From: Erythrobacter sp.
GTDB taxonomy: Bacteria > Pseudomonadota > Alphaproteobacteria > Sphingomonadales > Sphingomonadaceae
Assembly: GCF_011765465.1 (NCBI RefSeq)
Contig: NZ_CP050265.1
Coordinates: 1,612,001-1,676,000, forward strand
DNA: 64,000 nucleotides
Direction of reading: 5' to 3'
The notes under the pieces were generated by a model that saw only the letters and a program-made list of their open reading frames with translations, was not told where the DNA came from and did no database searches. The position numbers and the translations under genes are program-made. Within the stretch, counting starts at the first letter, position 1; each line of letters begins with the position of its first letter. Shown here one piece after another: positions 4,526-58,343 of the stretch.

Positions 4526-4542
4526 GATCGCAGGTCGGATGC
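4526..4542 (-). promoter_or_regulatory. Candidate autoregulatory operator upstream of iclR-family gene
   Basis: On the minus strand the sequence is GCATCCGACCTGCGATC (TCCG-N5-CGAT). It ends 39 nt before the regulator's ATG at 4582, a position suited to autoregulation. The match to the palindromic form is weaker than at 31163 or 43314. Confidence 0.4.
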
Positions 4543-4581
4543 GACCGGCCTCAAGGCCGCGCGCAGGGGAACAGGCGATAG

Positions 4582-5400: not shown

Positions 5401-5406
5401 GCGCGC

Positions 5407-6822
5407 TCAGGCCGGTTCGCGCACCAGCGAGGCGGCGGCGTGCTCGCCCGCGAGCCGTCCCAGCGTCGTCGCGGTCAGCAGGCCATTGCCCGCGAGGTAT
5501 CCATCCGCCCCCGGCCCCGAAATCCCGCGCGCCGCGCCGCCGCCCGCGTAGAGATTGGGGAAAGGTTGGCCCGAGGCGCGCATTACCCGCGCATGGCCGT
5601 CGACCTCGAGCCCGCCCTGCGTATGGAACAGCGCGCCCGTCACCCGTACCGCGTAGAACGGCGCTTCGAGCGGGGCCTTGCCCGCGAAGCTCCGACCGAA
5701 ACGATCGCGCTCTTCGCTTTCGATCAGGCGGTGCGTTTCGGCCACGCTTGCCTCCAGCCCGGCCGCGTCGATCCCTGCCTTTTCGGCAAGCTCGGCAAGG
5801 CTGTCCGCGCGCATCAGGCACCCGGCCGCGCGCGCCTGCTGGTAGTCGTCGAACTGGCACATGATCTCGTGCCGGCGTTCATCGTAGATGCTCCAGGCGA
5901 CATGGCCTTCCTGCCGCAGCACCTCGACCGCCTGCTCGGAATAGCCCGAAGCCTCGTTGGCGAAGCGCTCTCCGGCGCGGTTCACCTGTATCCCGCCCTC
6001 GGCGATCAGCGGCCACAGGATCGGGATGCCGTATCCCGCGGCGAGCCCTGCGTGCCCCTGGTAGGCGGAAAGGTCGGCCATTGCCGCGCCCATCTCGCGG
6101 CCCCAGGCAATCGCATCGCCCTTGTTGCCCGGATGGCCGTGAAAGGTCGCGTGTTCGAGTTCGGGGATGAGCTCGGAAACCATCGCCTGATTGCCCGCGA
6201 AGCCGCAGCAGGCGAGGATCACGGCATCGCACCCGATCACGTCGCGCGCGCCGTCGGGCCGTGTGGCGGCAATGGCGATCACCCGGTCCTCGGCGTTGAC
6301 ATAGAGCGTATCGACGAGGCTGTCGGTCAGGATGTCGACGCCCGCATCCTCGCAGGCGCTCGCCAGCGCGCCCATCAGTTCGGAGCCGGAGCGCGACGGC
6401 ATCCCGTGCATTCTCAGAGCGGAATGGCCGGGATAGGTGAAGCCTTCGACGAGGCTGAGACCGATGCCGTGGCTTTCGACCAGCCAGTCGACCGTGCGCG
6501 CGGATTCGCGGGTGAGGCGCTCGACCAGTGCGGTGTCCACCGCGCCTTTCGTCTTGGCGACGATGTCGGCGGCGAATTGCTCGGGGGAGTCTTCAACGCC
6601 CTTGGCGCGCTGGATGCGGCTCCCGGCGGCGGGGATGAGGCCGGTCGACATCGCGGTGGTGCCCATCGGCTGGCCGTCGCGCTCGACCACCAGCACATCG
6701 GCCCCCGCATCGCGCACGGCGAGCGCCGCGGTGAGGCCCGTGCCGCCGCCGCCGATCACGATGACGGGAATGTGGGCGATGGTCTCCACGCTGTCGGTGC
6801 GGATCACGCGGGTTTCGGTCAT
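5407..6822 (-). CDS. FAD-dependent oxidoreductase, fumarate reductase/KSTD-like flavoprotein
   Basis: A 471-residue flavoprotein. A dinucleotide-binding GGGGTG motif lies near residues 22-29 (VIVIGGGGTGLTAALAVRDAG). A MGTTAMSTGLIPAAGSR substrate/FAD loop and a C-terminal NLYAGGGAARGISG ... GYLAGNGLL flavin motif follow. This is the architecture of fumarate-reductase flavoproteins and 3-ketosteroid delta-1-dehydrogenases, which reduce or introduce C=C bonds next to carbonyls. No signal peptide is visible, so it is cytoplasmic. The ATG (6820-6822) overlaps the stop of the upstream alcohol dehydrogenase (ATGA), and both follow the acyl-CoA ligase. The three minus-strand genes form an operon read from about 9834. 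The substrate is unknown. Confidence 0.88.
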   Translation of the reverse strand: MTETRVIRTDSVETIAHIPVIVIGGGGTGLTAALAVRDAGADVLVVERDGQPMGTTAMSTGLIPAAGSRIQRAKGVEDSPEQFAADIVAKTKGAVDTALVERLTRESARTVDWLVESHGIGLSLVEGFTYPGHSALRMHGMPSRSGSELMGALASACEDAGVDILTDSLVDTLYVNAEDRVIAIAATRPDGARDVIGCDAVILACCGFAGNQAMVSELIPELEHATFHGHPGNKGDAIAWGREMGAAMADLSAYQGHAGLAAGYGIPILWPLIAEGGIQVNRAGERFANEASGYSEQAVEVLRQEGHVAWSIYDERRHEIMCQFDDYQQARAAGCLMRADSLAELAEKAGIDAAGLEASVAETHRLIESEERDRFGRSFAGKAPLEAPFYAVRVTGALFHTQGGLEVDGHARVMRASGQPFPNLYAGGGAARGISGPGADGYLAGNGLLTATTLGRLAGEHAAASLVREPA

Positions 6823-9834: not shown

Positions 9835-9885
9835 TTCCCTCTCCTTATCCGTGGCTCCTTTTGCACAAGGCCGCCGCGCCCGCCA

Positions 9886-9902
9886 TTATCCGTTGGGCGA
9901 AT
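9886..9902 (+). promoter_or_regulatory. Candidate IclR-type operator in prpE/partner-B divergent gap
   Basis: The sequence TTATCCGTTGGGCGAAT (TCCG-N5-CGAA) lies in the 146-nt divergent gap between the acyl-CoA ligase and the second partner/methyltransferase pair. Confidence 0.5.
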
Positions 9903-9980
9903 AGTGCGCGCAGCCCCCTGCCGCCGGACGGGGGTGTGCTGGTAGCTTCCGCCACGAAGACAAGGAGATCGGCGCAAGGC

Positions 9981-10385
9981 ATGGACGACAAACCCGCAAT
10001 CGACGTTCCCGAAACGCTCGGCGAAGAGATCGGCGGGCCGGGCAAGGCCTATTTCGACGATGTCGTGATCGACAATATCCTCGATGCGCTGCTCGAACTT
10101 TCGGCTGCGGTGTGGACCTATCACGACCGCGTCAACGTGCTCGAGACCGTGCTTGCCGAAAAGGGCATCGAGGTATCGGACGCGATCGAGGCGCACGTTC
10201 CTTCGGCCGAGGAAATCGCCCGGCGCGAGAAGGAACGCATGGCGCTGGTCGACCGCGTGTTCGGCGCCTTCCTGCGCCGTCCCACCCCGCGCGGACCCGC
10301 GCCGCTCGCGACCCCATCCGAGTCAGGCCCATCCGAGTCAGGCCCATCCGAGTCAGGCCCGACCGAGACAGGAGACGAGACATGA
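9981..10385 (+). CDS. Small helical partner protein B of methyltransferase, with SESGP repeats (134 aa)
   Basis: Unrecognised 134-residue protein homologous to the small proteins at 1875-2189 and 26112-26393. An N-terminal arm (1-30) is followed by a helix (about 31-61) with DRV-x2-LE-x-VL near residues 49-58, then a charged helix (about 72-98). Unlike the other two it carries a low-complexity C-terminal tail with three perfect SESGP units from a 15-bp tandem repeat (10314-10358). ATG 9981 follows an AAGGAG sequence 12 nt upstream. Here the small gene precedes its methyltransferase, the reverse of the other two pairs, but the ATGA overlap is kept (10382-10385). Role inferred as a methyltransferase partner. 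Confidence 0.78.
   Translation: MDDKPAIDVPETLGEEIGGPGKAYFDDVVIDNILDALLELSAAVWTYHDRVNVLETVLAEKGIEVSDAIEAHVPSAEEIARREKERMALVDRVFGAFLRRPTPRGPAPLATPSESGPSESGPSESGPTETGDET
10314..10358 (+). repeat. Tandem 15-bp repeat, three perfect units
   Basis: Three consecutive copies of CCATCCGAGTCAGGC (10314-10328, 10329-10343, 10344-10358) followed by a degenerate fourth. They encode SESGP in frame at the end of partner protein B, 23 nt before the next start codon. A change in unit number would keep the frame. Confidence 0.95.
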
Positions 10386-11467
10386 ACCGAGGCATGATCG
10401 GGGTCACACCCCGCCCCACCACGCTCGCCGATGAAAGCTATCTCGAATTCATCACCTCGTTCCGGCGGCTCGCGATCCAGCAGATGTTTCCCAAGGTCGC
10501 CGAACACGGCGAGGTGCGGCTCGCGCAGGCGATGGAAAGCGGCGCCGTCAAGGCCGAGAACGGAACCGTGCCGCTCGAGGAAATCCAGCGCATCTTCGGC
10601 GAAAACCCGGTGACGCCCACTTTCCAGCGTTTCGTGCGCACACAGCAGGAAATGATGTGGCGGCGCACCCGCGAAAGCTTCGTGCGCGATGCCGACAGCC
10701 TGATGGCATGGATGGAGGAAGCCGCGGCGAAAGCGCCCGAGCGGCTCCATATCGACCCCGATTTCACGCCGCCCGAATACACCCGCCGCGAAATCCACTG
10801 CCAGCCGGGCGGCTACACCGACGATCCGCTGGGCGGCGTCGTCTATCACTACGGGACCAAGGTCTTCTACGAGGGCTTCAACGACCAGGACGAGCTTCAC
10901 GCCGAACTGGTCGAGCGCGCCACCCCGCCCGCCGATGGCAAGGTCGAACGCGTGCTCGACATCGGCTGTTCCATCGGGCAGGCGACGACGCTGCTGAAGG
11001 ACCGCTTCCCAGAGGCCGAGGTGTGGGGTCTCGATGTCGGCGAGCCGATGATCCGCTATGCCCACGCCCGCGCGCTCGACCACGGCAAGGAAGTCCATTT
11101 CAAGCAGGCTCTGGCCGAGGACACGGGCTTCGATGCGGACAGCTTCGACATGGTGCTGAGCTACATCGTCTTTCACGAAGTGCCGGTGCAGAAAATGCGG
11201 GAAATCCTCGCCGAGACCTACCGCGTGCTGCGCCCCGGCGGGACGTTCACGATCTACGAATTCCCCAGCAACGACAAGGGACAGGTCAGCGCCTCGACCC
11301 GCTTCCTCGTCGACTATGACAGCCGCAACAATTGCGAGCCCTATTCGCCCGATTTCGTCGCTGCCGATTTCCGCGGGATCATTGCCGAAGCGGGCTTCGA
11401 GGTCGCTGACGGGCCGGGCCTGAGCAACACCTTCCTGCAGTCGATCGTCGCGACCAAGCCGGCCTGA
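10382..11467 (+). CDS. SAM-dependent methyltransferase with long N-terminal domain (copy 2 of 3)
   Basis: A 361-residue class I methyltransferase. Motif I (VLDIGCSIG) is at about 191-199, the acidic GLDVGEPMIRYAHA segment follows, and FHE is at 264-266 before RVLRPGG. The N-terminal 190 residues include IHCQPGGY (QPGGY at 141-145), matching copy 1 (IHRQPGGY). This indicates a common two-domain family rather than chance neighbours. Start ATG 10382 overlaps the stop of partner protein B by 4 nt, so translation is coupled. The stop lies 3 nt from the stop of the convergent FAD monooxygenase. Methyl acceptor unknown; the conserved FHE/LHE after motif IV in all three copies may mark the active site, which is inference. 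Confidence 0.87.
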   Translation: MNRGMIGVTPRPTTLADESYLEFITSFRRLAIQQMFPKVAEHGEVRLAQAMESGAVKAENGTVPLEEIQRIFGENPVTPTFQRFVRTQQEMMWRRTRESFVRDADSLMAWMEEAAAKAPERLHIDPDFTPPEYTRREIHCQPGGYTDDPLGGVVYHYGTKVFYEGFNDQDELHAELVERATPPADGKVERVLDIGCSIGQATTLLKDRFPEAEVWGLDVGEPMIRYAHARALDHGKEVHFKQALAEDTGFDADSFDMVLSYIVFHEVPVQKMREILAETYRVLRPGGTFTIYEFPSNDKGQVSASTRFLVDYDSRNNCEPYSPDFVAADFRGIIAEAGFEVADGPGLSNTFLQSIVATKPA

Positions 11468-44252: not shown

Positions 44253-46463
44253 GTGACCGAAGACGACCGCCTCGCCCATCTCGATCGCCTCGCGCTCGGC
44301 AGCGTCAGCGACACAGCGATATTCGACAAGATCACCCGGCTCGCCGCGACCATGCTCGCCTGCCCGGTCAGCCTCGTCTCGATCGTCGAGGCCGAGCGGC
44401 AGTGGTTCATCGGCCGCACCGGGATCGAGGTCGAGGAGACCCCGCGCGACTGGTCGTTCTGCTCGGTCTGCATCGCGCGCGGCGCCCCGCTGCTGGTCGC
44501 CGACGCGCGGGCCCACGAATTGTTCGCGGGCAGCCCGCTGGTCACGGGCGAGCCTTTCATCCGCTCCTATCTCGGCATTCCGATCGCGAGCGAGGACGGC
44601 GCGCTGCTCGGCACGCTGTGCGCGATAGGCCGCGAACCGGACGCTTTTTCGGCCGAGCACATTCCCGCTCTCAAGGTGCTGGCCGAGCTTGCCGAGCAAT
44701 GCATCACCACCCACGCCCGCACGCTCGACCTCAGCCGCGCGAACGCTTCGCTTTGCGAGCTCAACCGGGTGTTCAAGCAGGCCGAGCGCGCCGCCAATAT
44801 CGGCTCGTGGCGCGTCGATCTCGCCAGCGGCACGCTGCGCTGGTCGGACCAGGTCTATGCCATTCACGGGCTGGAACCGGGAACGCCGGTCGATGTCGAA
44901 CGGGCTGTCGGTTTCTACGTCCCCGAGGACCGCGCCACGGTCGAGGCCGCGATGAACGAGGCGATCGAGCACGGCGAGCCGTTCCAGTTCGAAGCCTATG
45001 TCAGCCGCCCCGACGGCGAACGCCGCCGGGTGCGCGCGGTAGGGGAACGGATCGACGCGGACGGCAGGCCCGAAAGCCTCGCCGGGGTGTTCCGCGACGT
45101 GACCGAAGAGCACCTCAGGAACGCCGCGCTGAAGCGCGCGGCCGAGCGCGACCGGCTGACCGGGCTCTACAACCGCGCGGTGTTCGACCGCAAGCTGGCC
45201 GAGACGGTGCGCCATGCGGGCGGAAAGCCGGTGACGGTGATGCTGCTCGACCTCGACGGGTTCAAGGACATCAACGACACGCTCGGCCACCTCGTCGGCG
45301 ACACCGTGCTCGCCGCGCTCGGCGACCGCCTGCTGGCCGAGACGCGCGGCGATGTCTTCGTCGCGCGCTGGGGCGGGGACGAATTCGCCTTCCTCTTCGC
45401 GCCGGGCACGCGGATCGAGCAGGCGACCGCCTTCGCCGAAAAGCTGGCGGAGGAATTGTCCGAACATCTCGAACTGGGCGAAGATGTCTTCGCGGTCGGG
45501 GCGACCTGCGGCATCGCGCAAATGGCGGGCGAGCCGCGCCGCGGCTGCGCCAGCCGGGCCGAGGAACTGGTCCGCCGCGCCGACCTTGCGCTTTACCACG
45601 GCAAGCGTTCGGAACGCGGCACGGTGCAGTGCTGGAGCGAGCAAATCGAGGATGCGCAGGACGCGCGGGCGAGCGCGATCGCGAGCCTCGCCTCGGCGCT
45701 GCGTTCGGAGCGCGCCTTTGCCGCCTACCAGCCGATCGTCGAACTCGATACGGGTCGCACGGTGTCCTTCGAGGCGCTCCTGCGGATGCGCGAGGAAGAC
45801 GGGCGCGTGCTCACCGCCGGGCAGGTTTCGCCCGCGCTGCTCGATCCGAAACTGTCGCGCCGGGTGTCGGATTTCATGCTCGAACGCGCGCTTGCCGAAG
45901 CCCCGCGCCTGATCGCGCTGCACGGGCCGGACACGCGGATCGGGCTGAACGTGACCGAGGCCGATCTGGCCCGCCGCGCGAACGGGGGCGGCTTCGTCGA
46001 CAGGCTGATGGCGATGGTCGCGAAAAGCCCGCTCGCCCCGCGCAATGTCACGATCGAAGTGACCGAGACGATGTTGCTGGTCGACGATGCGGGCCGCGTG
46101 CGCGAGGCGCTCCACCGGCTCGACGCGGCGGGGTTCACCGTCGCGCTCGACGATTTCGGGACGGGGTTCTCCTCGCTTACCCACCTGCGCGACTTTCCCA
46201 TCCGCAAGGTCAAGATCGACAAGGATTTCATCGCCAGCATCGCCGATGATCACCAGTCGCGGCTGATCGTCCAGGCGATCGTGCAGATGGGGCGCAGCCT
46301 CTCGATGCGGGTCGTCGCCGAAGGGGTCGAAACCGAGGACCAGGCGCGCTTCCTGCGCCAGGTCGGCTGCGGCCATGCGCAGGGCTATCTCTTCGGCCGG
46401 CCCGAAAGCCTCGCGGTGCATGAGGAAGCGCACGCCGCAGCGAAATGGCGCTGTGTAGGGTAA
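44253..46463 (+). CDS. GAF-PAS-GGDEF-EAL cyclic-di-GMP signalling protein
   Basis: A 736-residue cytoplasmic protein. A GAF domain (about 20-155) is followed by a PAS domain (about 175-290), GGDEF (about 295-465) and EAL (about 480-730). The GGDEF motif is intact (RWGGDEF near 372-377), but the RxxD product-inhibition site is not evident (TRGD at shifted spacing). EAL residues are present: FEALLRM, GLNVTE, VTETML, ALDDFGTGFSS, KIDKDF, EGVET and QGYLFG. Both cyclase and phosphodiesterase activity are thus possible. The start is GTG 44253. It stands alone between the catabolic island and the chemotaxis genes and probably links a small-molecule signal to motility. Confidence 0.92.
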   Translation: MTEDDRLAHLDRLALGSVSDTAIFDKITRLAATMLACPVSLVSIVEAERQWFIGRTGIEVEETPRDWSFCSVCIARGAPLLVADARAHELFAGSPLVTGEPFIRSYLGIPIASEDGALLGTLCAIGREPDAFSAEHIPALKVLAELAEQCITTHARTLDLSRANASLCELNRVFKQAERAANIGSWRVDLASGTLRWSDQVYAIHGLEPGTPVDVERAVGFYVPEDRATVEAAMNEAIEHGEPFQFEAYVSRPDGERRRVRAVGERIDADGRPESLAGVFRDVTEEHLRNAALKRAAERDRLTGLYNRAVFDRKLAETVRHAGGKPVTVMLLDLDGFKDINDTLGHLVGDTVLAALGDRLLAETRGDVFVARWGGDEFAFLFAPGTRIEQATAFAEKLAEELSEHLELGEDVFAVGATCGIAQMAGEPRRGCASRAEELVRRADLALYHGKRSERGTVQCWSEQIEDAQDARASAIASLASALRSERAFAAYQPIVELDTGRTVSFEALLRMREEDGRVLTAGQVSPALLDPKLSRRVSDFMLERALAEAPRLIALHGPDTRIGLNVTEADLARRANGGGFVDRLMAMVAKSPLAPRNVTIEVTETMLLVDDAGRVREALHRLDAAGFTVALDDFGTGFSSLTHLRDFPIRKVKIDKDFIASIADDHQSRLIVQAIVQMGRSLSMRVVAEGVETEDQARFLRQVGCGHAQGYLFGRPESLAVHEEAHAAAKWRCVG

Positions 46464-46653: not shown

Positions 46654-47694
46654 TCAGGCCGCGGCGGGCTTGGCCGCGGTCGCATCGAGGATCCAGTCGG
46701 CGAGCGCGTCCTGCTTGAGCTCGGCGACTTCGAGGCCGAGCGCGCGCACCGCTTCGTAGCGTTCCGACGGGGCATAGTCGGCGGGCAGCTGGACGAAGGC
46801 GCGGCCCTTGGCGGAGCTCAGGATCTGCAGCCCCTTCGCCCCGTCGGCACCCGTGCCGGGCAGCAGGCCGCCGACCACCGGCAACCCCGAACGCGCGAGC
46901 GAGCCGAGCAGCAGGTCGGCCGAGGGGCGAAAGCCGTTCACCGGATCGCGCTCGACCAGCCGCAGCACGGGCGCTTCGCCCTGTTCGACGATGACATGGC
47001 GCGATCGGTCATAGGCGAGATAGGCCGTGCCGGGGCGCAGGGTCATGCCGTCGACGACGTTCTCGATCTCGCAGGCGAGCGAGGAGCGCATCGCGCTCAC
47101 CGCGCTGTCGAGAGTGGCGGCGTCGGCATCGATGACGAGCACGGTCGGCGGGCAATTGGCCGGGAAGGCGGCGAGCAGGCGCTTGGCCGCGTCGATGCCG
47201 GCCGTCCCGCAGCCGATCGCGACCACGCTGCCGTCGCTTTCGTAGGCTCCGCCGGAGTCCGGCGTCGCATCGCCGCCCGCCCCCGGGCCGAGCTCGCCGC
47301 TATGCGCCTTGACCACGATCTCGCCGAGCTTTTCGACCGTGGCGTTGAATTCCTCGCGCGAGGTGTGGAGCGGCTTGGGAAAGCAGTGCACCGCGCCCAG
47401 CTCGAGCGCGCGCTGCGCCGTGCCGGTCCCGGCCTGGGTGATGCTGGAGAGCATGATGACCGGCATCGGGCGGGTCGCCATGATCTCCTCGAGGAATTCC
47501 ATCCCGCTCATCCCCGGCATTTCGACATCGAGCGTGAGCACGTCGGGCTTCGCCTCGTCCATCTTCTCGCGCGCTTCCTCGGCGCTTTTCGCGACGGCGC
47601 AGACATCGACGCCTTTCGCATTGTCGAGAATGTCGCAGAACAGGGCGCGCATCGCCGCGGAATCGTCAACCACCATCACTCGTGTGTTCGGCAT
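46654..47694 (-). CDS. CheB-like response regulator with degenerate methylesterase domain
   Basis: A 346-residue protein with the CheB plan. The receiver domain (about 1-125) keeps its acidic pocket, the phospho-acceptor Asp at about 56 (TLDVEMPG) and the Lys in FPKPLH. The C-terminal domain (about 155-340) aligns with the methylesterase domain of the CheB at 55445, but the catalytic motif IGASTGG is IGCGTAG (Ser to Gly at about 163) and QH is ID (His to Asp at about 189). Only the third Asp (TGADG, about 284) remains. It should not hydrolyse glutamate methyl esters. It may titrate phosphate from CheA or bind CheB substrates without cutting them (inference). It is divergent from MCP 1. Confidence 0.85.
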   Translation of the reverse strand: MPNTRVMVVDDSAAMRALFCDILDNAKGVDVCAVAKSAEEAREKMDEAKPDVLTLDVEMPGMSGMEFLEEIMATRPMPVIMLSSITQAGTGTAQRALELGAVHCFPKPLHTSREEFNATVEKLGEIVVKAHSGELGPGAGGDATPDSGGAYESDGSVVAIGCGTAGIDAAKRLLAAFPANCPPTVLVIDADAATLDSAVSAMRSSLACEIENVVDGMTLRPGTAYLAYDRSRHVIVEQGEAPVLRLVERDPVNGFRPSADLLLGSLARSGLPVVGGLLPGTGADGAKGLQILSSAKGRAFVQLPADYAPSERYEAVRALGLEVAELKQDALADWILDATAAKPAAA

Positions 47695-47991: not shown

Positions 47992-49845
47992 GTGACGATC
48001 AAGCAGATTTCCCGATATGTCGGCACGGGCCTCGTCGGCCTCCTCCTTATCGCGGGGGCGGTCGCTTTCTACAGCGTCGATACGATCCGCTTCGGCGGGC
48101 CGATCCAGCGCTCGAACCAGGAATTGTCCGACTTCCGCGCCGACATCAACCCGCCGCCGGGCTACCTCGTCGAAGCCTTCGCGCTCGCCAATGTCATGGC
48201 GGTCCACCCGGAGAGCTACGAGATCAACGACAACCGGCTGAACAATCTCGAACGCGACTGGCGCGAGACGGCGGCGAAGTGGGAGAAATCGAATCTCGAC
48301 CCCGCGCTCAGGGATGAATTCCGCCGCATCACCGAAAGCGATGCGACCGAGTTCTGGGACGAGGTCAACAACACGCTCAAGCCCGCGGTCCGGAACGACC
48401 GCGCAGCCGTGGTCGATGGCTCGCTCGACCGGCTGCTGACGATCTACCGCGCGCATCGCAGCAAGATCGACGACCTGCTGGAACGCACCGGCGACGTGCA
48501 GACGGGCCTTGCCACCTCGAGCGCGGGGACCGTGACCACCGCCTCGATCGTGCTGATCGGCCTGGGCGTGGTGCTGGTGCTGGCGATCGTGATCAGCCTC
48601 GCCGCCTTCGCGCGGCTGGTGCTGCGCCCGCTCGAAGAGACGGCGGGCACTATGGAGGAACTCGCGCGCGGCAATCTCGACGTCGCCCGGCGCGAGACGG
48701 AGCGCAAGGACGAGCTCGGCGTCATGGCCCGCGCGATCGAGACCTTCCGCAGCGCGCTCGCACGCGACAAGCACCGCGCCGAGACGCAGAACACCGTGGT
48801 CGAGGCGCTGTCGGCGGGGCTCGAGAAGCTCGCTGCGGGCGATCTCACGCATCGCATCGACGACTCGGTGAAAGGCGAATACGCGGCCCTGCGCGATGCC
48901 TATAATTCCGCCGCGGGCAAGCTCGGCGGGATCATCGGCCACGTTCGCCTCGCCGCGACCGGGGTGCGCACCGGATCGGACGAGATTCGGGTTGCCTCGG
49001 AAGACCTCTCCAACCGCAACGAGGAACAGGCCGCCAGCCTCGAGGAAACCGCCGCCTCGATGAGCGAGGTCACCAGCCTCGTGCGCAAGACCGCGGAAAA
49101 CGCGCGCGGCGTGCAGGCGTCGATCTCGAGCACCCACCAGCAGGCAACCCAGGGCGGTGAAGTGGTGAAGAAGGCGGTCGACGCGGTCGCCGCGATCGAA
49201 AGCTCCTCGCAGGAAATCACCCAGATCATCGAACTGATCGACGGGATCGCCTTCCAGACCAACCTGCTTGCCCTGAACGCGGGCGTGGAGGCCGCGCGCG
49301 CGGGCGAGGCGGGCAAGGGCTTCGCCGTGGTGGCCAACGAGGTCCGCGGGCTTGCCCAGAGGAGCGCCGATGCGGCGCGCGACATCAAGGTCCTGATCGA
49401 CAAGTCGACCGCCCATGTCGGCGACGGGGTCAATCTCGTCGGCGAAACCGGCACGCTGCTGGGCGAAATCGTCGCCCAAGTCGGCAAGGTGACGACACAG
49501 GTCGACGACATCGCGGAGATGGCCGCCTCGCAGGCGGTGAACCTCGAACAGGTGAACAGCTCGGTCGGGACGATGGACCAGATGACCCAGCAGAACGCCG
49601 CCATGGTCGAGGAAACCACCGCTTCCGCGCGCAGCCTCGCCGACGAAGCGCGCAGGCTGGGCGATCTCGTCGCGCAGTTCCGGGTCGAGGGGGCAGCCCA
49701 TGCAGCAGCCCCCGTGGCCGAAGTGCCCGCCCCTCGCAGCACCCCGCAAAGCAGCGCCGCGCCCCCGCCTGTAAGGGGCAATCTCGCGCTCAAGCCCGAT
49801 CCTGCGGCGAACGAAGCGGAGGAGCAGGACTGGAGCGAGTTCTGA
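47992..49845 (+). CDS. Methyl-accepting chemotaxis protein 1
   Basis: A 617-residue receptor. A first membrane helix (about 10-28) and a second (about 180-205) enclose a periplasmic domain of about 150 residues with no recognised name. HAMP (about 205-260) and the cytoplasmic hairpin follow, with tip sequence [21 protein letters not shown]. The last five residues are DWSEF, which fits the xWxxF tether bound by CheR in other bacteria. The start is GTG 47992. Its signalling half is nearly identical to that of MCP 2 (50107-52005), whereas the sensor domains differ. It opens the plus-strand chemotaxis region. Confidence 0.93.
49543..49652 (+). repeat. 110-nt perfect direct repeat, copy in MCP 1
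   Basis: Identical base for base to 51658-51767 in MCP 2, about 2.1 kb away and in the same reading frame. It covers the [14 protein letters not shown]-type end of the signalling helix. Identity at synonymous positions implies recent duplication or gene conversion. Confidence 0.9.
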
Positions 49846-50041: not shown

Positions 50042-50106
50042 GCAGGCGGGATCGAGAATGCCTGCAACAGGCAATGGCTCGCACTCGGCAAGGGAAAGGG
50101 TACGCC

Positions 50107-52005
50107 GTGACTATCCAGCAGCTGTCCAGATATGTGTCCGCCGCCATCATCGGCCTGATCGGCATCGGCGGGCTCGTCGCCTTCTACGGCGTCAACGAAA
50201 TCCGCTTCGGCGGGGCGATGCAGCTCGAAAACGAGCGCATGGCCGCCTTCGAGGCCGCGATCAATCCGCCGCCGGCCTACCTGCTCGAGCCGTTCATGGA
50301 AGTGAACCTGATGGCGAACAACCCGGACAACCTTGCCGAGCACGCCGAATATCTCGGCCGGCAGAAGCGCGAATGGCAGGCCGCGACCGAAGCCTGGGCC
50401 GCTTCCGAACTCGACGAGGACCTCAAGCGCGGCCTGGCCGAGACCACCGCGACCCACGGCGCGGAGTTCTGGAACATCGTCGAGCGCGAGTTGATCCCCG
50501 CAATCCGGAACGACGAAATGGGCCGTGCGCGCGCGATCCTGCGCGAGCTTCTGATGGTCTACCGCGCGCATCGCGGGGCGGTCGACCAGCTGCTCGCCGA
50601 CACCGCCGCGCGCCGCGACGCGCTGGACACCGAAAGCGCGGGCACGGTGGCGACGATCACGACCATCCTCGTCGCGCTCGGCCTGATCCTCGCGGCCGCG
50701 CTGATCGCCTGCTTCGCCATGGTGACGCGCAAGGTGCTGCGTCCACTGGGCGAGACCGCTGGCGTGATGGAAGCCATGGCCTCGGGCGATCTCGAGGTCG
50801 GCCGCACGCACACCCACCGCGACGACGAGATCGGCACGATGACCCGCGCGATCGAACAGTTCCGCGCCTCTCTCAAGGCCGACAAGGAACGCTCCGCGGC
50901 GCAGGCCCACGTGGTCGAGACGCTGTCGGGCGCGCTCGGCAAACTGTCGGACGGCGATCTCGTCCACCGTATCGACGACAGCGTGACCGGCGAACACGCC
51001 GCGATCCGCGAGGCTTACAACACCTCGATCGGCAAGCTCGCGGCGATGATCGCCAGCGTGCGCTCCTCTTCCGCCAGCGTGCGCACCGGATCGGACGAGA
51101 TTCGCGTCGCGTCGGAAGACCTCTCCAACCGCAACGAGGAACAGGCCGCCAGCCTCGAGGAGACCGCCGCCTCGATGAGCCAGGTCACCGGCCTCGTTAA
51201 GAAAAGCGCCGAGAACGCCAAGAGCGCGCAGGAGGCGATGGGCCGCACCCACAAGCAGGCGACCGAGGGCGGCGAAGTCGTCGCCCGCGCGGTCGATGCC
51301 ATGGCCGCGATCGAAAGCAGCGCGCAGGAAATCACCCAGATCATCGAACTGATCGACGGGATCGCCTTCCAGACCAACCTGCTTGCCCTGAACGCCGGGG
51401 TCGAAGCCGCGCGCGCTGGCGAGGCGGGCAAGGGCTTCGCCGTTGTCGCCAACGAAGTCCGCGGGCTTGCCCAGAGAAGCGCCGATGCCGCGCGCGACAT
51501 CAAGGCGCTGATCGACAAGTCGACCGCCCATGTGGGCGACGGGGTCAACCTCGTCGGGGAGACCGGCACGCTGCTGGGCGAGATCGTCGCCCAGATCGGC
51601 AAGGTCACGGCGCAGGTCGACGACATTGCCGAAATGGCCGCCTCGCAGGCGGTCAATCTCGAACAGGTGAACAGCTCGGTCGGGACGATGGACCAGATGA
51701 CCCAGCAGAACGCCGCCATGGTCGAGGAAACCACCGCTTCCGCGCGCAGCCTCGCCGACGAAGCGCGGCGGCTGGGCGATCTCGTCGCGCAGTTCCGCAC
51801 CGGCGAGGATGCGCCCGCCGCAGCCGCTCTCGCGCCCGCCACACGCCCCGCCCCCGCGCGCCCAGCCGTGCAGCCGCGCCGCGCCGCGCCCCAGCCCGCG
51901 CCTGCGCCGGCGACCAGCGGCAATCTCGCGCTCAAGCCCGAACCGGCGGAGGAGATGCCTGTCGCCCCGGCAGAAATCGAGGAACAGGACTGGAGCGAAT
52001 TCTGA
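50107..52005 (+). CDS. Methyl-accepting chemotaxis protein 2
   Basis: A 632-residue receptor with the same layout as MCP 1: a helix at about 8-28, periplasmic domain, second helix near 180-205, HAMP and signalling hairpin with [21 protein letters not shown]. The tail ends in DWSEF (xWxxF type). I place the start at GTG 50107 rather than the upstream ATG 50074. The protein then begins TIQQLSRYV like MCP 1's TIKQISRYV, and AAAGGG lies just before it. The sensor domain is diverged from MCP 1, but DxxINPPPxYLxEPF is shared, so both may sense related ligands. The STAS gene follows by 58 nt. Confidence 0.92.
51658..51767 (+). repeat. 110-nt perfect direct repeat, copy in MCP 2
   Basis: Identical to 49543-49652 in MCP 1. 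A second near-identical stretch surrounds the [19 protein letters not shown] codons in both genes. Confidence 0.9.
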
Positions 52006-52063: not shown

Positions 52064-52327
52064 GTGCAGACCATCACCCTGCCGAGCAAATGCGACCGCG
52101 CCGCGGCGAGCGCGCTGATCCCCGAAATGTGCGATGCGATAGGGGTCAGCCCGCTGGCGGTCGACGCCGCCAAGGTCGAGCGGATCGGCCAGGCCATGCT
52201 CCAGCTGCTCGTCTCGGCCGCGCGCACCGAAGGGGGCATCGCGCTCGCCAACCCGAGCGAGGCATTCCTTGCCGCGGTCCGGCTTGCCGGGCTCGAGACG
52301 GTTCTTCTCGAGGAGGCGGCGCGATGA
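52064..52327 (+). CDS. Small STAS-domain protein of the chemotaxis operon
   Basis: An 87-residue single STAS-like domain. The central segment VDAAKVERIGQAMLQLLVSAAR aligns with the anti-sigma-factor-antagonist signature (LDxSxVxxIDSAGLxLL), but the phosphorylated Ser position is occupied by Gln in GQAM. It is therefore probably not controlled by Ser phosphorylation. The start is GTG 52064, after GGAG. Its stop overlaps the cheA start (ATGA at 52324-52327), so it is made together with CheA. STAS-like proteins occur at this place in other alphaproteobacterial che clusters; the role is not established. Confidence 0.8.
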   Translation: MQTITLPSKCDRAAASALIPEMCDAIGVSPLAVDAAKVERIGQAMLQLLVSAARTEGGIALANPSEAFLAAVRLAGLETVLLEEAAR

Positions 52328-54528
52328 ACGAAGACGACATCCAGCAGATCTTCTTCGTCGAGTGCGAGGAATCGCTCGAAGCCGCCGAGGCCGGGCTCGA
52401 TGCCTGCCGCAACGGCACGCACGACGACGAGACGATCAACGCGATCTTCCGCGCGGTCCATTCGGTGAAAGGCGGCGCGGGGGCCTTCGGGCACCTCGCG
52501 ATGCAGGCGTTCACCCATTGCTTCGAGAACCTGCTGGGTGAAATCCGCGAACACAAGATCGAACTGACCCCGGCGCTGGTCGACCTCATGCTGACCGCGC
52601 TCGACCTGCTGCGCGACCACGTTGAAGCCGCCCGCAGCGGGGCCGAGGCGCCCGACGATGCCGCCCTTATCGGCCAGCTCGAAGCGGCGCAGGCGGGCGG
52701 CGACGGTGGCGGCGTCGTTGGCGAAGATGCGCCTGCCGCACCGTCCGAGCAGGAACCGGAGGCACCGCAGGCGCCGGAGGCTCCCTCGGCCTCCTCCGGC
52801 CTCGACGATCTCGACGCGCTGCTCGACGAACTCGCGGCCGATCCGGCCCCCGCTGCCTCGCCCGAGCCCAGCCCTGAACCCGAACCCGAACCCGAACCCG
52901 TCGCCGACTCCGCGCCTGCGGACGGTGCGACCGAAACCGGCGGCGGCGCGGAGTGGCTCGTGCACATCCGGCCCCATTCGGGCGCCATGGCGAACGGCAG
53001 CGAGCCGCTCTTGTGGCTGCGCGAACTGGCCGAGCTGGGCGGCACCTGCGAGGCGTGCGACGTCTCCGCGATCCCCGCGCTCGAACGGCTGCTGGTCGAG
53101 GAAGGCTATTTCGGCTGGACCTTCCGGATGCCCGCCCACGTCACCCGCGAACAGGTCGCGGACATCTTCGACTTCGCGGGCGAGGATGTCGCCGTCGCCT
53201 ATGGCGAGGACGGCCTGCCCGCGGTCAAGATCCCCCGCCGCGAAGCGCCCGTCGACCCGCCCGGCCAGCCCACCCCGCCGCTCACCGCCGAACGGCGCAA
53301 GCCGCAAGGCGCGTCCGGCGGGAGCAGCAGTCCTGCGGTCGGCGGGTCGCAATCGGTCCGCATCGACCTCAAGAAACTCGACCGCCTGATCGACGGCGTG
53401 GGCGAGCTCGTCATCGCGCAGGCCATGCTGACCCAGCGCCTCGCCGATGAAAACGTCGCCCATGTCGAGGAGCTCGCGATGCTCGACACGCTCGTGCGCG
53501 ACATCCAGGAACACGCGATGGCCTTCCGCGCCCAGCCGATCAGCGCGGTGTTCGGGCGCGTGCCGCGCCTGCTGCGCGAACTGGCGGGCAAGACCGGCAA
53601 GCACGTCAAGCTCGAGGTGACCGGCGAGACGACCGAGCTCGACAAGACCGTGATCGAGCGCCTGTCCGAGCCGATGACCCATCTCATCCGCAACGCGGTC
53701 GACCACGGCATCGAACCGGCCGAGGACCGCCAGGCGGCGGGCAAGGACCCCGAAGGCACGCTGTCGCTTTCCGCCGAACAGAAGGCGGGCCGCATCGTCA
53801 TCCGCATCGGCGACGACGGACGCGGGATCGACCGCGAGAAGATCCGCGCCAAGGCTGTCGCGAGCGGCATCATCGCCGAGGACGCGCAACTGTCGGACGA
53901 GGAATGCTGCCAGCTCGTCTTCGCCCCCGGCCTGTCGACCGCCAAGGAGATCTCGAACATTTCCGGGCGCGGCGTGGGCATGGACGTGGTCAAGCAGAAC
54001 GTGAAGGACCTGGGCGGGCGCATCACGATCGAATCCGAACCGGGCAAGGGCACGACCTTCGTCCTCGCCCTGCCGCTGACGCTGGCGATTTCCGACGGGA
54101 TGATCGTCGAGGTCGGCGACCAGTCGCTCGTCATCCCGCTGACCCACGTGATCGAAAGCCTGCGCCCCGCGGCGGACGAACTGAAAGGGCTTGGCACGCA
54201 GCGCCAGATGCTCAACGTGCGCGGCGCCTTCGTGCCGATCGTCTCGCTGGGCGCGATGACCGGCGCGCGCGACTGGGAGGCCGATCCGAGCAAGGGCGTG
54301 CTGGTGCTCGTCGAGACCGAAGGCAGCGGGCGCGCCGCGCTTCTGGTCGATGCGATCGCCGACCAGCGGCAATTCGTGATCAAGAGCCTCGATGCCCATT
54401 ACCGCGCGGTCGACAGCGTCGCGGGCGCGACGATCATGGGCAATGGCCAGGTCGCGCTGATCGTCGATGTCGATTTCCTCGTCCAGTCGACCGGTGCGCC
54501 GGCCCCCGGAATGGCGCACGCGGCATGA
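52324..54528 (+). CDS. cheA: Chemotaxis histidine kinase CheA
   Basis: A 734-residue CheA. The HPt domain (about 1-105) has the phospho-accepting His 46 in FRAVHSVKGGAG. A Pro/Glu/Ala-rich linker (about 130-200, including PEPEPEPEP) and an intermediate domain (about 205-305) follow. The dimerisation domain (about 340-400) starts at SVRIDLKKLDRLIDGVGELV, and the ATPase domain shows HLIRNAVDHGIE, DDGRGID, GRGVGMDVVK and GKGTTF. A C-terminal CheW-like domain (about 590-734) completes it. It autophosphorylates at receptor arrays and donates phosphate to CheY and CheB. Coupled by 4-nt overlaps to the STAS gene before and cheR after. Confidence 0.96.
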   Translation: MNEDDIQQIFFVECEESLEAAEAGLDACRNGTHDDETINAIFRAVHSVKGGAGAFGHLAMQAFTHCFENLLGEIREHKIELTPALVDLMLTALDLLRDHVEAARSGAEAPDDAALIGQLEAAQAGGDGGGVVGEDAPAAPSEQEPEAPQAPEAPSASSGLDDLDALLDELAADPAPAASPEPSPEPEPEPEPVADSAPADGATETGGGAEWLVHIRPHSGAMANGSEPLLWLRELAELGGTCEACDVSAIPALERLLVEEGYFGWTFRMPAHVTREQVADIFDFAGEDVAVAYGEDGLPAVKIPRREAPVDPPGQPTPPLTAERRKPQGASGGSSSPAVGGSQSVRIDLKKLDRLIDGVGELVIAQAMLTQRLADENVAHVEELAMLDTLVRDIQEHAMAFRAQPISAVFGRVPRLLRELAGKTGKHVKLEVTGETTELDKTVIERLSEPMTHLIRNAVDHGIEPAEDRQAAGKDPEGTLSLSAEQKAGRIVIRIGDDGRGIDREKIRAKAVASGIIAEDAQLSDEECCQLVFAPGLSTAKEISNISGRGVGMDVVKQNVKDLGGRITIESEPGKGTTFVLALPLTLAISDGMIVEVGDQSLVIPLTHVIESLRPAADELKGLGTQRQMLNVRGAFVPIVSLGAMTGARDWEADPSKGVLVLVETEGSGRAALLVDAIADQRQFVIKSLDAHYRAVDSVAGATIMGNGQVALIVDVDFLVQSTGAPAPGMAHAA

Positions 54529-55448
54529 CGGCGGAGCGCGCGGCGGGCACGCGAGGGGGCGAAGGGAGCGGCGGCGAGGCCGCGCTCGTCCCCGGCATCA
54601 GCCCGATGGTCTATTCCGAAGCAGACTTCCTTCGCATCGCCGAACTCGCGCGGGTCGAGGCGGGCATCGTCCTTTCCGAACGCAAGCGGATGCTCGCCTA
54701 TTCGCGCCTCGCCCCGCTGGTGCGGCGCAGCGGGCGGACGAGCTTCGGCGAATATCTCGACCTCATCGAAACCGACCCGGGCGAAGCGATGAACGCGATC
54801 GCCGCGATCACCACCAACCACACCTATTTCAACCGCGAGCCGCACCATTTCGAGCATTTCGAGGCCGAGGTCCGCCCCGGACTCGTCGCCCGCGCTTCGC
54901 AAGGCGGGCGCGTCCGATTGTGGTCGGCGGGCTGTTCGAGCGGGGAGGAGATCTGGACGCTGATGATGGTCCTGCTGGGCGAGGACAAGGGCGCGGGCAA
55001 GCGGCTCGCGACGCGCGACGTGGTTGCGCTCGCGAGCGACCTGTCGGGCCAGGCGCTCGCCAGCGCCAAGGCCGCGACCTACCCGGCCGAGGCGATTGCC
55101 GCCGTGCCCGAGCGCCTGCGCCGCCACTGGACCGCACCCGCCGCGCCTGCCGCCGCAAGCGGACCGGAACGGCTCTCCATCGGCCCGGAGCCGCGCGCGC
55201 TGGTGCGCTTCCGCCAGCTCAACCTTCTGCGCCCCTGGCCCTTCGCCAATGCCTTCGACGTGATCTTCTGCCGCAACGTGATGATCTATTTCGATGCCGC
55301 CTCGAAGGAGCAGCTCGTCCTCGCGCTCGCCCGCCAGCTTGCGCCGGGGGGCTATCTATACATCGGCCATTCCGAGCGCGTCTCGGGCGAGGCGAGCGCG
55401 CTGATCGATCCCGTAGGCCCGACGATCTACCGGCGGAGGGCGGCATGA
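54525..55448 (+). CDS. cheR: Chemotaxis protein methyltransferase CheR
   Basis: A 307-residue SAM-dependent glutamate methyltransferase acting on MCPs. The N-terminal helical domain is followed by TTNHTYFNREPHHF (the TTNxTxFFR family motif), the SAM motif LWSAGCSSGEE, SDLSGQALASA, and the FDVIFCRNVMIYFD segment. About 30 Gly/Ala-rich residues precede the domain. It overlaps cheA and cheB by 4 nt each. A docking partner may be the DWSEF tails of MCP 1 and 2. Confidence 0.95.
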   Translation: MTAERAAGTRGGEGSGGEAALVPGISPMVYSEADFLRIAELARVEAGIVLSERKRMLAYSRLAPLVRRSGRTSFGEYLDLIETDPGEAMNAIAAITTNHTYFNREPHHFEHFEAEVRPGLVARASQGGRVRLWSAGCSSGEEIWTLMMVLLGEDKGAGKRLATRDVVALASDLSGQALASAKAATYPAEAIAAVPERLRRHWTAPAAPAAASGPERLSIGPEPRALVRFRQLNLLRPWPFANAFDVIFCRNVMIYFDAASKEQLVLALARQLAPGGYLYIGHSERVSGEASALIDPVGPTIYRRRAA

Positions 55449-56545
55449 ACGCGGCGGTGAAACCTCCCCTGCGCGTCCTCGTGGTCGACGATTCGGCGGT
55501 GATGCGCGCGCTGCTTCAGCACCGCCTCACGCGAGAGGCCGACATCGAGGTCGTGGGCTCTGCCGCCAATGCGAACGAAGCGCGCGCGCTGATCAAGGCG
55601 CTCGACCCGGACGTGGTGACGCTCGACATCGAGATGCCGGGGATGGACGGCCTGTCCTTCCTCGAGAAGATCATGACCCTGCGCCCGACCCCGGTCATCA
55701 TTGTCTCCAGTGCGACCGAGGCGGGGGCGAGCGCGACCGCGCGGGCGCTGAGCCTGGGCGCGGTCGATTGCTACGCCAAGTCCGAACTCCAGCGCGGCAC
55801 GGGGCACGACGACGGCGGCGCGCTCGCGCGGATGGTGCGCGAGGCGGCCTCGGTCCGGCTCGGCCCGGCGCGCGGGGGGGACCGTCCCGCCGGGCGCCCC
55901 CGCGCGCCCGCTCCCCGGCCTGCATCCGCGCCGCAGCCCGCGCCCCCGCTGCGTCCCGGAGGTGCGCCCGAGCTCATCGCCATCGGCGCCTCCACCGGCG
56001 GGGTCGAGGCGCTTCACACCCTGCTCGCGCGGTTCCCCGAGGATTGCCCGCCGACGCTGATCGTCCAGCACGTCAACGCCTGTTTCGCCCCCGCCATTGT
56101 CCAGTCCCTCGGCCGGATCGCGCGCCCGCGCGTCATGCTCGGCGAAAGCGACCTGCCCCTCGCCCGCGGGACGGTCCTGCTCGCGCCGGGCGATGCCAAG
56201 CATATGCTCGTCGCGAGCGCAGGGGCGCGCGGCCACCGCTGCGTGCTGCGCGCGGGCGAGCCGGTCGCCGGCCACCGCCCGAGCGTCGATATCCTGTTTC
56301 GCTCGGTCGCCGAGCGGGTGGGCGCGCGCGCCTGCGGCGTCCTGCTTACCGGCATGGGCCGCGACGGCGCGGAGGGGCTTGCCGCCATGCACCGCGCCGG
56401 CGCGCACACCATCGCGCAGGACGAGGACAGCTGCGTCGTCTTCGGAATGCCGCGCGCCGCGATCGCGCTCGGCGCGGCAAGCGAAGTCCTACCGCTAGCC
56501 AGCATCGCCGATGCCCTGTTCACTCCCGAGGAGATCGCCCGATGA
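55445..56545 (+). CDS. cheB: Chemotaxis protein-glutamate methylesterase CheB
   Basis: A 366-residue CheB. The receiver domain (about 1-125) has phospho-acceptor Asp 61 (LDIEMPG). A Pro/Arg/Ala-rich linker (about 135-172) leads to the methylesterase domain with the full triad: Ser 183 (IGASTGG), His 209 (VQHVNA) and Asp 307 (TGMGRDG). It removes methyl groups from MCP glutamates and deamidates glutamines. It is the intact counterpart of the degenerate protein at 46654-47694. Overlaps cheR and cheD by 4 nt. Confidence 0.96.
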   Translation: MNAAVKPPLRVLVVDDSAVMRALLQHRLTREADIEVVGSAANANEARALIKALDPDVVTLDIEMPGMDGLSFLEKIMTLRPTPVIIVSSATEAGASATARALSLGAVDCYAKSELQRGTGHDDGGALARMVREAASVRLGPARGGDRPAGRPRAPAPRPASAPQPAPPLRPGGAPELIAIGASTGGVEALHTLLARFPEDCPPTLIVQHVNACFAPAIVQSLGRIARPRVMLGESDLPLARGTVLLAPGDAKHMLVASAGARGHRCVLRAGEPVAGHRPSVDILFRSVAERVGARACGVLLTGMGRDGAEGLAAMHRAGAHTIAQDEDSCVVFGMPRAAIALGAASEVLPLASIADALFTPEEIAR

Positions 56546-57126
56546 GCGCCCCGCTTTCCATACCCCCGTCGGACCTGGCGCAGGCCGACCTCGAAGCCCC
56601 TGCGCCGGTTCGGCTCACCATCCTGCAGGGCCAGGCGAAGGCCAGCGCCGACCCGGCGGTGGAAATGGGCACGGTGCTCGGCAGCTGCGTTGCGACCTGC
56701 CTGTTCGACCTGCGCGCGCGGGTCGGGGGGATGAACCACTTCCTTCTGGCAGAACCCCCCGAGCACGCAGACCGCGCCAGTTTCGACCGCGACTACGGCC
56801 TCTTCCTGATGGAGCTGCTGGTCAACGAGATGCTGCAACTGGGCGCGAGCAAGTCGCGCATGAAGGGGCGACTCTACGGCGGGGCGAACATCAATCCCGA
56901 CCTTGCGCCGATCGGTTCGGCGAATGCCGCCTTCGCCCGCGATTTCCTTCGCCGCGAGGGGATCGAGCAGGTCTACGAGGACCTCGAAGGGCGCCACGCG
57001 CGCCGCATCCAGTTCCGCCCCGCCTCGGGCCTCGTGCGCTGCCGGGTGGTCGCGCGCGATGCCGCACCTACGCAAAAACCACTGGCCCGGCCGCAATCGG
57101 CGATTGGGACGGTCGAGCTATTCTAG
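56542..57126 (+). CDS. cheD: Chemoreceptor glutamine deamidase CheD
   Basis: A 194-residue CheD. The catalytic Cys 49 (VLGSCVATCLFD) and His 66 (GGMNHFLL) are present, and the fold continues with KGRLYGGANIN. It deamidates Gln residues in MCPs. The start overlaps the cheB stop by 4 nt. The C terminus IGTVELF has the VELF-type ending common in CheD of this group. It precedes cheY by 17 nt. Confidence 0.94.
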   Translation: MSAPLSIPPSDLAQADLEAPAPVRLTILQGQAKASADPAVEMGTVLGSCVATCLFDLRARVGGMNHFLLAEPPEHADRASFDRDYGLFLMELLVNEMLQLGASKSRMKGRLYGGANINPDLAPIGSANAAFARDFLRREGIEQVYEDLEGRHARRIQFRPASGLVRCRVVARDAAPTQKPLARPQSAIGTVELF

Positions 57127-57143: not shown

Positions 57144-57599
57144 ATGTCGCCAGCCCACGCTTCCTCGCCCCGCAGCGCGCCCCCGAATACCGCGCCCGCC
57201 GATACCGCCACCGCCGAGAACCCCGGCGGGGACGGATCGATCCGCGTGCTGACCGTCGACGACAGCGCCTCGATGCGCGCGCTGCTGCTCGCCGCGCTGT
57301 CCTCGCGCGGGTTCGCGGTCGAACAGGCCGAGGACGGGCAGGAAGCGCTCGAATGGCTGGCCACCAACGAGGTCGACGTCATCATCACCGACATCAATAT
57401 GCCGCGGCTCGACGGGTTCGGCCTGATCGAGAAACTGCGGGGAAGCGCGCTCCATGCCGACCGGCCGATTCTCGTGCTGACCACCGAAAGCTCGGACGAA
57501 AAGAAGGCGCGCGCCCGCAATGCCGGGGCGACCGGCTGGATCGTCAAGCCCTTCGATGCCGACAAGCTCACGACCGCGCTGCGGCGCGTGACCCACTGA
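57144..57599 (+). CDS. cheY: Chemotaxis response regulator CheY
   Basis: A 151-residue single receiver domain with an unusual 33-residue disordered N-terminal extension rich in Ala, Pro and Thr. The acidic pair DD (39-40), phospho-acceptor Asp 83 (ITDINMP), Thr/Ser 113-114 and Lys 135 (VKPF) are all present. AAAGGA lies 6-10 nt before ATG 57144. It carries the CheA phosphate signal to the flagellar motor. The gap to cheW is 37 nt. Confidence 0.93.
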   Translation: MSPAHASSPRSAPPNTAPADTATAENPGGDGSIRVLTVDDSASMRALLLAALSSRGFAVEQAEDGQEALEWLATNEVDVIITDINMPRLDGFGLIEKLRGSALHADRPILVLTTESSDEKKARARNAGATGWIVKPFDADKLTTALRRVTH

Positions 57600-57636: not shown

Positions 57637-58077
57637 ATGCGCTGCGAACTGATCACTTTCGGGATAGCCGACCAGCTTTTCGGCATCGACATCATGACGA
57701 TCCGCGAAATCCGCGCCTGGTCGCCTGTGACGCGCCTGCCGCGCGTGCCCGAATATGTCGCGGGCGTCGTCAACCTGCGCGGCGCGGTGCTGCCGGTGAT
57801 CGACCTGTCGATCCGATTGGGGTGGCAGGCGACCGAATGCACCCCGCGCAATCCCATCATCGTGACCGAATTCGAAGGCCAGTCGCGCGGGCTGATCGTG
57901 CACGATGTCAACGACATCGTCTCGCTCGACGCCGAAGACCTCCAACAACCCGACGCGGTGCAGAACGATTACATCACCAATTTCCTCGAAGGCGTGGCCC
58001 CGCTGGGCGACGACATGGTCATGGTGCTCGACCTCACCAAGCTGATGGCGAACGACGAGCTGGACCTTGCCGCATGA
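57637..58077 (+). CDS. cheW: Chemotaxis coupling protein CheW
   Basis: A 146-residue CheW. The fold begins LITFGIADQLFGIDIMTIREI and contains VAGVVNLRGAVLPVIDLSIRLG and VMVLDLTKLM. It couples CheA to receptors. An AGGAG lies 15-19 nt before ATG 57637. The stop overlaps the following small gene by 4 nt (58074-58077). Confidence 0.95.
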   Translation: MRCELITFGIADQLFGIDIMTIREIRAWSPVTRLPRVPEYVAGVVNLRGAVLPVIDLSIRLGWQATECTPRNPIIVTEFEGQSRGLIVHDVNDIVSLDAEDLQQPDAVQNDYITNFLEGVAPLGDDMVMVLDLTKLMANDELDLAA

Positions 58078-58343
58078 GCCAAGCCCTGCCCCAAGGCATC
58101 CACCCCGCCATCGCGCAATCGCTCGGCGCGCTCGCCAGCGATACCGAAGGCATGGGTCTCGCCCTGTGTTCCGATCCCGACATCGCGGCCCGGCACATGG
58201 AGCAGTTGCAGGCGATCGACCGCATCTCGCAGTCGCTGCGCGAACTCGCCCGCGTGCTGGCGGCGAGCGATCCCGAAGCGGCGGTGGGCGAGATCTGCCT
58301 CGGCGACCTGCGCGCGGCGCTGGAGGAGGCGTGTGCGTCCTGA
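58074..58343 (+). CDS. Small helical protein of the chemotaxis operon (89 aa)
   Basis: Unrecognised 89-residue protein, mostly helical. A central segment, LQAIDRISQSLRELARVLAA, is reminiscent of helices in CheZ-like or flagellar helper proteins, but this resemblance is weak. It is coupled to cheW by a 4-nt overlap and overlaps the next small gene by 11 nt (58333-58343). Being kept in the operon with overlaps argues that it is a real gene with a chemotaxis-related role. Confidence 0.65.
   Translation: MSQALPQGIHPAIAQSLGALASDTEGMGLALCSDPDIAARHMEQLQAIDRISQSLRELARVLAASDPEAAVGEICLGDLRAALEEACAS

Follow-up and report, generated by a model that had tools for sequence, protein, structure and literature searches.

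The 64,000-nucleotide window (the whole stretch of Erythrobacter sp. DNA analysed here) encodes a CheB paralogue, which we term pCheB, from which the classical Ser-His-Asp chemistry of the methylesterase is very likely absent to judge by its residues, and whose gene is shown by its substitution pattern to be kept under selection and not decaying. On phylogenetic grounds, pCheB is an old clade of one bacterial family and not a local accident, and it probably tunes the chemotaxis signal instead of cutting. In most cases its gene lies close to that of the intact enzyme. Few circuits in biology have been modelled as well as the chemotaxis feedback loop, in which CheB is the esterase; a dead CheB that has long been kept beside a working one means that these models leave out a component of sphingomonad adaptation or signalling. 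Furthermore, two cheB genes may amount to one enzyme, and counts of methylesterases based on annotation can mislead. The separate losses of Ser and His provide a natural series of what a response regulator keeps once its output chemistry is removed.

The initial annotation had described, at positions 46654-47694, a CheB paralogue without the catalytic Ser and His, in which the IGASTGG of intact CheB becomes IGCGTAG and VQH becomes VID, while the Asp and Lys of the receiver and the third catalytic Asp are retained. Each of these observations was recovered: the open reading frame is present, on the minus strand (which we add to the description), the alignment places G163 at the Ser position and D189 at the His position, and D10, D11, D56, S83, K107 and D284 are all in place (Table 1). 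Both domains score above their Pfam cut-offs (Response_reg, 78.4 bits; CheB_methylest, 90.1 bits), and pCheB aligns with the intact CheB encoded from position 55445 at 38% identity over 324 columns (E 2e-54). Further changes affect the active site: the Met of the GMG loop is replaced by Thr, the His of the HRPS motif by Phe, and the VVFGMP stretch is replaced as well. Among 71 comparison CheBs, the GMG Met is present in every one and the HRPS His in 70.

Table 1. Features of the pCheB gene and of the chemotaxis cluster beside it (positions are those of the window)
Feature	Position	Strand	Basis
pCheB, CheB paralogue with dead catalytic triad, 346 aa	46654..47694	-	Pfam
pCheB receiver domain, residues 1-118; D10, D11, D56, S83, K107 kept	47341..47694	-	
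Codon of D56, presumed phospho-acceptor	47527..47529	-	Computed; D56 conserved in 58/58
Methylesterase-fold domain, residues 158-332	46699..47223	-	Pfam PF01339, AlphaFold model
Codon of G163, catalytic Ser position	47206..47208	-	
Codon of D189, catalytic His position	47128..47130	-	
Codon of D284, third triad residue, kept	46843..46845	-	
MCP1, divergent from pCheB (297 bp gap), ends in DWSEF	47992..49845	+	
MCP2, ends in DWSEF	50074..52005	+	
Small STAS-like protein (CheS position)	52064..52327	+	STAS name by reading of the sequence
CheA	52324..54528	+	Pfam Hpt, H-kinase_dim, HATPase_c, CheW
CheR	54525..55448	+	Assigned by reading; position conserved
Intact CheB partner (Ser-His-Asp)	55445..56545	+	NCBIfam CheB models over cut-off
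CheD	56542..57126	+	Assigned by reading; position conserved
CheY, only one seen in the cluster	57144..57599	+	Assigned by reading; homologues counted
CheW	57637..58077	+	Assigned by reading; position conserved
89-aa helical DxxxQ protein, CheT-like candidate	58074..58343	+	

The curated NCBIfam model for CheB (NF001965) has a cut-off of 293 bits. The pCheB of the window falls short at 209.7 bits, and six of the seven pCheBs scanned fail, the exception being L057 with 310.6 bits, whereas all four intact CheBs scanned pass (367.3 bits for that of the window, 320.1 for L002, 378.9 for L204 and 403 for L207). Three proteins of the window genome carry a CheB_methylest domain, namely pCheB, its intact partner some 8 kb away, and L002. 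The latter, at C1:2122482, is a third CheB in which the GASTGG and QH motifs are intact, and it has a separate chemosensory locus of its own; proteins similar to L002 are the best match in many genomes of the genus that have no pCheB.

An AlphaFold model of pCheB, built from 41 sequences, reached a mean pLDDT of 90.9 and a pTM of 0.68. The effector domain of this model fits the CheB catalytic domains 1chd and 3sft with rmsd values of 2.0 Å and 1.8 Å, respectively, and the best PDB matches of the model are whole CheBs. The whole chain, when compared with closed CheB, fits poorly (rmsd near 12), which, together with the pTM value, indicates that the domain arrangement is either not closed or not defined. 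The methylesterase domain is predicted to fold, as part of a CheB-like two-domain architecture. Like the CheBs of Salmonella (1a2o) and Pectobacterium (6ymz), which are its best PDB relatives by sequence as well as by fold, pCheB consists of a receiver, a linker and a methylesterase fold; unlike the CheB enzyme, it has lost the Ser and His of the triad and several further active-site positions, and the protein of the window scores under the NCBIfam CheB cut-offs.

For the residue counts across the family, each protein was labelled pCheB or CheB according to the tblastn query that matched it best, independently of the state of the triad, and identical sequences were counted once (59 pCheBs reduce to 58, L053 and L163 being the same, and 72 CheBs to 71). 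The 58 include the pCheB of the window; the 71 exclude its CheB, which is also Ser-His-Asp, and among them L058 has a truncated start and L180 is without some receiver residues. CheB-like proteins of fewer than 250 residues were left out, which removed one copy truncated by a contig end (L015/L047/L060). The Ser-His-Asp triad occurs in none of the 58 pCheBs and in all 71 comparison CheBs, a contrast that, at the level of sequence, is far beyond chance. The states found in pCheB are GDD (13 proteins), SQD (10), GAD (7), SRD, SPD and DHD (6 each), and ten singletons.

The receiver, on the other hand, is intact throughout, with D10, D11, D56, S83, T86 and K107 present in 58 of 58 pCheBs. D284 is kept equally widely, which suggests a structural role, and is followed by P257 and H233 (57 each), C181 (56), S258 (55) and R256 (54). 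H233, S258 and C181 are about equally conserved in CheB (70, 69 and 62 of 71, respectively), which marks them as old residues of the fold and not as a replacement triad. Among 20 aligned pCheBs, few effector columns are invariant, and no Ser or His of the effector domain is. A triad shifted to other residues, named in the initial annotation as a finding that would overturn it, was thus not seen, the nearly invariant Ser, His and Cys being equally kept in CheB. T164, G165, Q188 and the GMG Met, all invariant in the 71 CheBs, are lost in many pCheBs.

Two observations on the receiver may be added here. At residue 70, all 58 pCheBs have Glu and all 71 CheBs have Lys or Arg, a full swap of charge. 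At locus L180 (genome G096), the CheB (9679-10710) keeps its triad and has ENDAR in place of the receiver residues DDDSK, while the pCheB (3602-4663) keeps its receiver and lacks the triad; the cheA and cheR matches of this locus are each split into two pieces in different frames, so that decay or sequence errors are possible there.

Phylogenetic analysis places the pCheBs in one clade (bootstrap 100, SH-aLRT 99) in a tree of 75 proteins chosen from 144, and likewise in a quick tree of all 144 proteins and in a receiver-only tree. The nearest relative of the clade in the 75-protein tree is the intact CheB L204 of G082 (98/92); the deeper branches of this tree show no clear order. L204 belongs to the sphingomonad Y-A-W-R-B-Y-D cluster type (L204, L207-L218), the CheBs of which, unlike pCheB, have an intact triad; in these trees, pCheB is not derived from the CheB of its own cluster. 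In the 75-protein tree the clade splits in two (support 100/100 and 98/83). One branch, of nine proteins, carries an acidic residue (Asp or Glu) at the Ser position, with the His kept in seven and the third triad residue, Asp, in all; the other, of 49 and including the pCheB of the window, has no triad His and keeps the Ser in 23. No lost residue is common to both branches, from which we infer an ancestor with both Ser and His and separate losses thereafter, though a residue may instead have been regained; the residue patterns point to a triad that was probably lost on two or more occasions. On a tree built without the triad columns, the fewest changes are three for Ser, four for His, and one for the intact triad as a whole.

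Within the genus, an orthologue was found in 12 of 37 genomes, one of these cut at a contig end, and the ten full copies besides that of the window have no internal stop and have all lost both Ser and His. A scan of the genome collection yielded, among the matches listed, relatives in Erythrobacter oryzae, Alteraurantiacibacter aquimixticola, Novosphingobium and Sphingomonas; 11 of the 80 loci listed fall into the pCheB clade and the other 69 are all Ser-His-Asp, numbers that say little on dead CheBs elsewhere since the scan is biased to pCheB-like receivers and covers listed matches only. When 298 genomes of the GTDB family were searched with a profile, a pCheB member was found in at least 39, a lower bound because below about 285 bits only the matches in L180 and L219-L221 were looked at; che clusters with low scores may be missed. 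Among genomes with a recognised A-R-B-D-Y-W che cluster, 35 of 36 carry pCheB, with the window genome included and G168 judged from matches alone; the exception is G240. A literature search, with subscription journals mostly outside its scope, returned no title or abstract start, among the matches listed, that mentions a catalytically dead CheB.

The constraint on the two domains was compared at the 44 loci that have both pCheB and CheB (946 pairs). The mean pairwise identity of the receiver is 0.625 for pCheB versus 0.608 for CheB, and that of the effector is 0.391 versus 0.568; effector dN is 0.688 for pCheB versus 0.424 for CheB. In 12 close pairs of pCheBs, several of which have dS above 1, dN/dS ranges from 0.012 to 0.117 in the receiver and from 0.017 to 0.201 in the effector, and in three of them (L035/L052, L188/L190 and L202/L203) the effector value is not above that of the receiver. 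By these measures, the pCheB receiver is as constrained as that of CheB, and the dead domain is faster-evolving yet under purifying selection. The low dN/dS and the constrained receiver indicate that selection preserves pCheB chiefly on account of its receiver, and that it acts on the dead domain as well, if less strongly. A kept function, which the initial annotation had read from the intact receiver, is therefore supported by clade-wide conservation and purifying selection, both of which are sequence evidence.

The surroundings of the gene link it to chemotaxis clusters. In 30 of 59 loci, pCheB lies 3' of cheW on the same strand, at 13-96 bp (distances taken from match edges), and 18 loci share the arrangement of the window, with pCheB and a receptor gene transcribed divergently; 47 loci adjoin one or the other, L201 counting in both and 12 in neither. 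A homologue of the STAS-like protein is found in 31 of the 43 complete clusters with pCheB. Taking as a single-domain CheY any receiver match that ends at most 45 residues from the protein end, we counted exactly one such receiver in 42 of the 43 complete cluster stretches that carry pCheB, where L053 and L163 represent a single genome; the remaining stretch owes its apparent second receiver to a truncated pCheB. The Y-A-W-R-B-Y-D clusters have two CheYs and no pCheB on the cluster (13 of 13). Eleven further complete clusters without pCheB on their stretch also have one CheY: four on draft contigs, three with pCheB elsewhere in the genome, two of other families, L196, and L206. For the draft contigs, three genomes carry pCheB on another contig and G023 (72% completeness) shows none; L206, of G240, has the A-R-B-D-Y-W order with pCheB absent. 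Four flagellate genomes of group g53 (G173, G232, G278 and G315) have FliM and FlhA, with pCheB beside a cheY, no partner CheB and only distant CheAs. In group g46, of 2 Mb genomes, the neighbours of pCheB are a receptor and a CheA-like protein.

FlhA was detected in 47 of the 50 pCheB genomes examined, and in 48 of 51 when all genomes examined are taken together, the window genome included. The FliM Pfam model gave nothing above its cut-off in the 37 genomes of the genus, the window's among them, and matched all seven other genomes; a non-flagellate reading of this result was rejected given FlhA in the window genome, and the absence of FliM is treated as a miss of the model in view of the 48 FlhA matches. 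The window genome also has two T2SSE and ten MCPsignal matches, which have no bearing on pCheB. On the other side of pCheB, and convergent with it, the window encodes a GAF-PAS-GGDEF-EAL protein (44253-46463, plus strand), found beside pCheB elsewhere only in L034 among the neighbourhoods compared.

We favour, at close to an even chance, the reading of pCheB as a second CheA-fed response regulator that acts as a phosphate sink. pCheB would then be a second response regulator of the flagellar chemotaxis pathway in sphingomonads: CheA would phosphorylate its receiver on D56, and pCheB, whose methylesterase domain is predicted to fold but by its sequence is not equipped for a Ser-His-Asp reaction, would mainly draw phosphoryl groups off CheY and CheB, shaping and ending the signal. 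It would thereby occupy the place of the sink CheY1 in Sinorhizobium meliloti, and the small DxxxQ protein, which many loci encode behind it, may perhaps help to drain it. One kinase with two response regulators is described as a sink design in S. meliloti, where CheY1 takes up phosphoryl groups of CheA and its action is sharpened by CheS (PMC4214558). The likeness lies in a second receiver beside one output CheY and, for CheS and CheT, in the STAS-like and DxxxQ proteins of many of the same clusters; CheY1, however, is a lone receiver, whereas pCheB is a two-domain CheB paralogue to which phosphotransfer is putative. Gene content and residues do provide what a sink calls for, that is, a phosphorylatable-looking receiver together with one CheA and a separate output CheY, but with its full-length effector pCheB is not a single receiver of the CheY1 kind. 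The occurrence of one CheY with pCheB versus two without it suggests that pCheB fills the slot of the second receiver; this contrast compares two related cluster groups, and is close to one evolutionary event, which is a weak point for the sink, as are the occurrence of the DxxxQ protein in clusters without pCheB and its failure to match a CheZ-like fold. Also counting against it are the g53 pCheBs, with neither partner CheB nor a close relative of the window's CheA, and the one-CheY clusters with no pCheB on their stretch, L206 included. Finally, a full-length effector under purifying selection speaks against a pure sink, which needs the receiver only.

That last point leads to the main rival, a substantial possibility although we would not bet on it, in which pCheB is a non-catalytic binder gated by phosphorylation. 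As in CheB, phosphorylation would open the pair of domains; the dead one would then bind a partner (receptors, CheB, CheD or another), and thereby shield methylated sites or serve as a scaffold. Besides the preserved effector, this agrees with the high per-residue confidence of the CheB-like two-domain fold, with the retention of D284, P257, H233, S258 and R256 despite the lost triad, and with the position of pCheB beside cheW or a receptor gene in 47 loci; it agrees less well with an effector that diverges much faster than that of CheB and has few invariant columns, and with a pocket residue, at position 134, that is mostly not basic. In 40 of 58 pCheBs this position, part of a modelled pentapeptide pocket in E. 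coli (PMC8609364), holds Asn, Glu or Lys; Arg or Lys occupy it in 16 of 58 pCheBs versus 38 of 71 CheBs. Comparison of positions 126-138 showed no clear retention in pCheB. The pentapeptide site is described as varying among CheBs generally (PMC7698151, PMC12654446), so the comparison is a weak test of competition for receptor tails. Of the two roles suggested in the initial annotation, the phosphate sink is hence the one favoured, by gene content, and competition at receptor tails is not favoured by sequence, with the weakness of that test in mind. Sink and binder roles can hold together. A narrower proposal, which we consider unlikely, makes pCheB an adaptation antagonist gated by phosphorylation, which opens and occupies the methylation regions of receptors without cutting. 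If it were true, CheA activity would switch on the esterase and also arm the esterase's decoy, and a pseudo-enzyme would have arisen inside the core feedback loop of a bacterial family through separate losses of Ser and His.

Continued catalysis through a rebuilt active site, for instance with an Asp nucleophile in the Asp-His-Asp branch, appears very unlikely. The branch of nine, with its Asp or Glu for Ser and its mostly kept His, would allow it, as would H233, S258 and D284 in nearly all pCheBs; yet the other 49 pCheBs have no His at the triad place, T164, G165, Q188 and the GMG Met are lost in many, and the remaining Ser and His are kept equally in CheB. That pCheB is a functionless duplicate in decay is the least probable reading, and we give it hardly any weight: the pCheB of G030 is long-branched, has lost its HRPS residues and occurs in a genome without FlhA, che cluster or partner CheB, and may be a relic, but the purifying selection in close pairs, the full-length frames, the 58 intact receivers and the single old clade all argue against decay of the family.

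The protein encoded at 58074-58343, proposed above to drain the putative sink, is a candidate CheT/CheZ-like phosphatase of sphingomonads, on the strength of its motif and position. CheT of S. meliloti, which bears a DxxxQ motif, is described as speeding the dephosphorylation of one CheY (PMC12654446). The motif is present in 70 of 70 matches in che loci. Pfam gave no match for this protein or for two homologues, and its model is helical (pLDDT 91), with no PDB match of E under 0.001 in a search for CheZ-like folds. The DxxxQ protein is encoded directly downstream of pCheB in 38 of 59 pCheB loci; in the other 21, it is elsewhere on the stretch in 13, and 8 have none on the stretch. It is also present where the cluster has no pCheB, in all 13 clusters of the Y-A-W-R-B-Y-D type as well as in L206, and is therefore not specific to pCheB. 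In groups g46 and g53 it has moved together with pCheB. At L188, a module apart from the main che cluster (1094-6093) comprises a protoglobin receptor, a CheA-like protein, pCheB and the DxxxQ protein, with Pfam identifying the protoglobin domain in the receptor and no Hpt in the CheA-like protein; similar modules occur in L186, L190 and L192.
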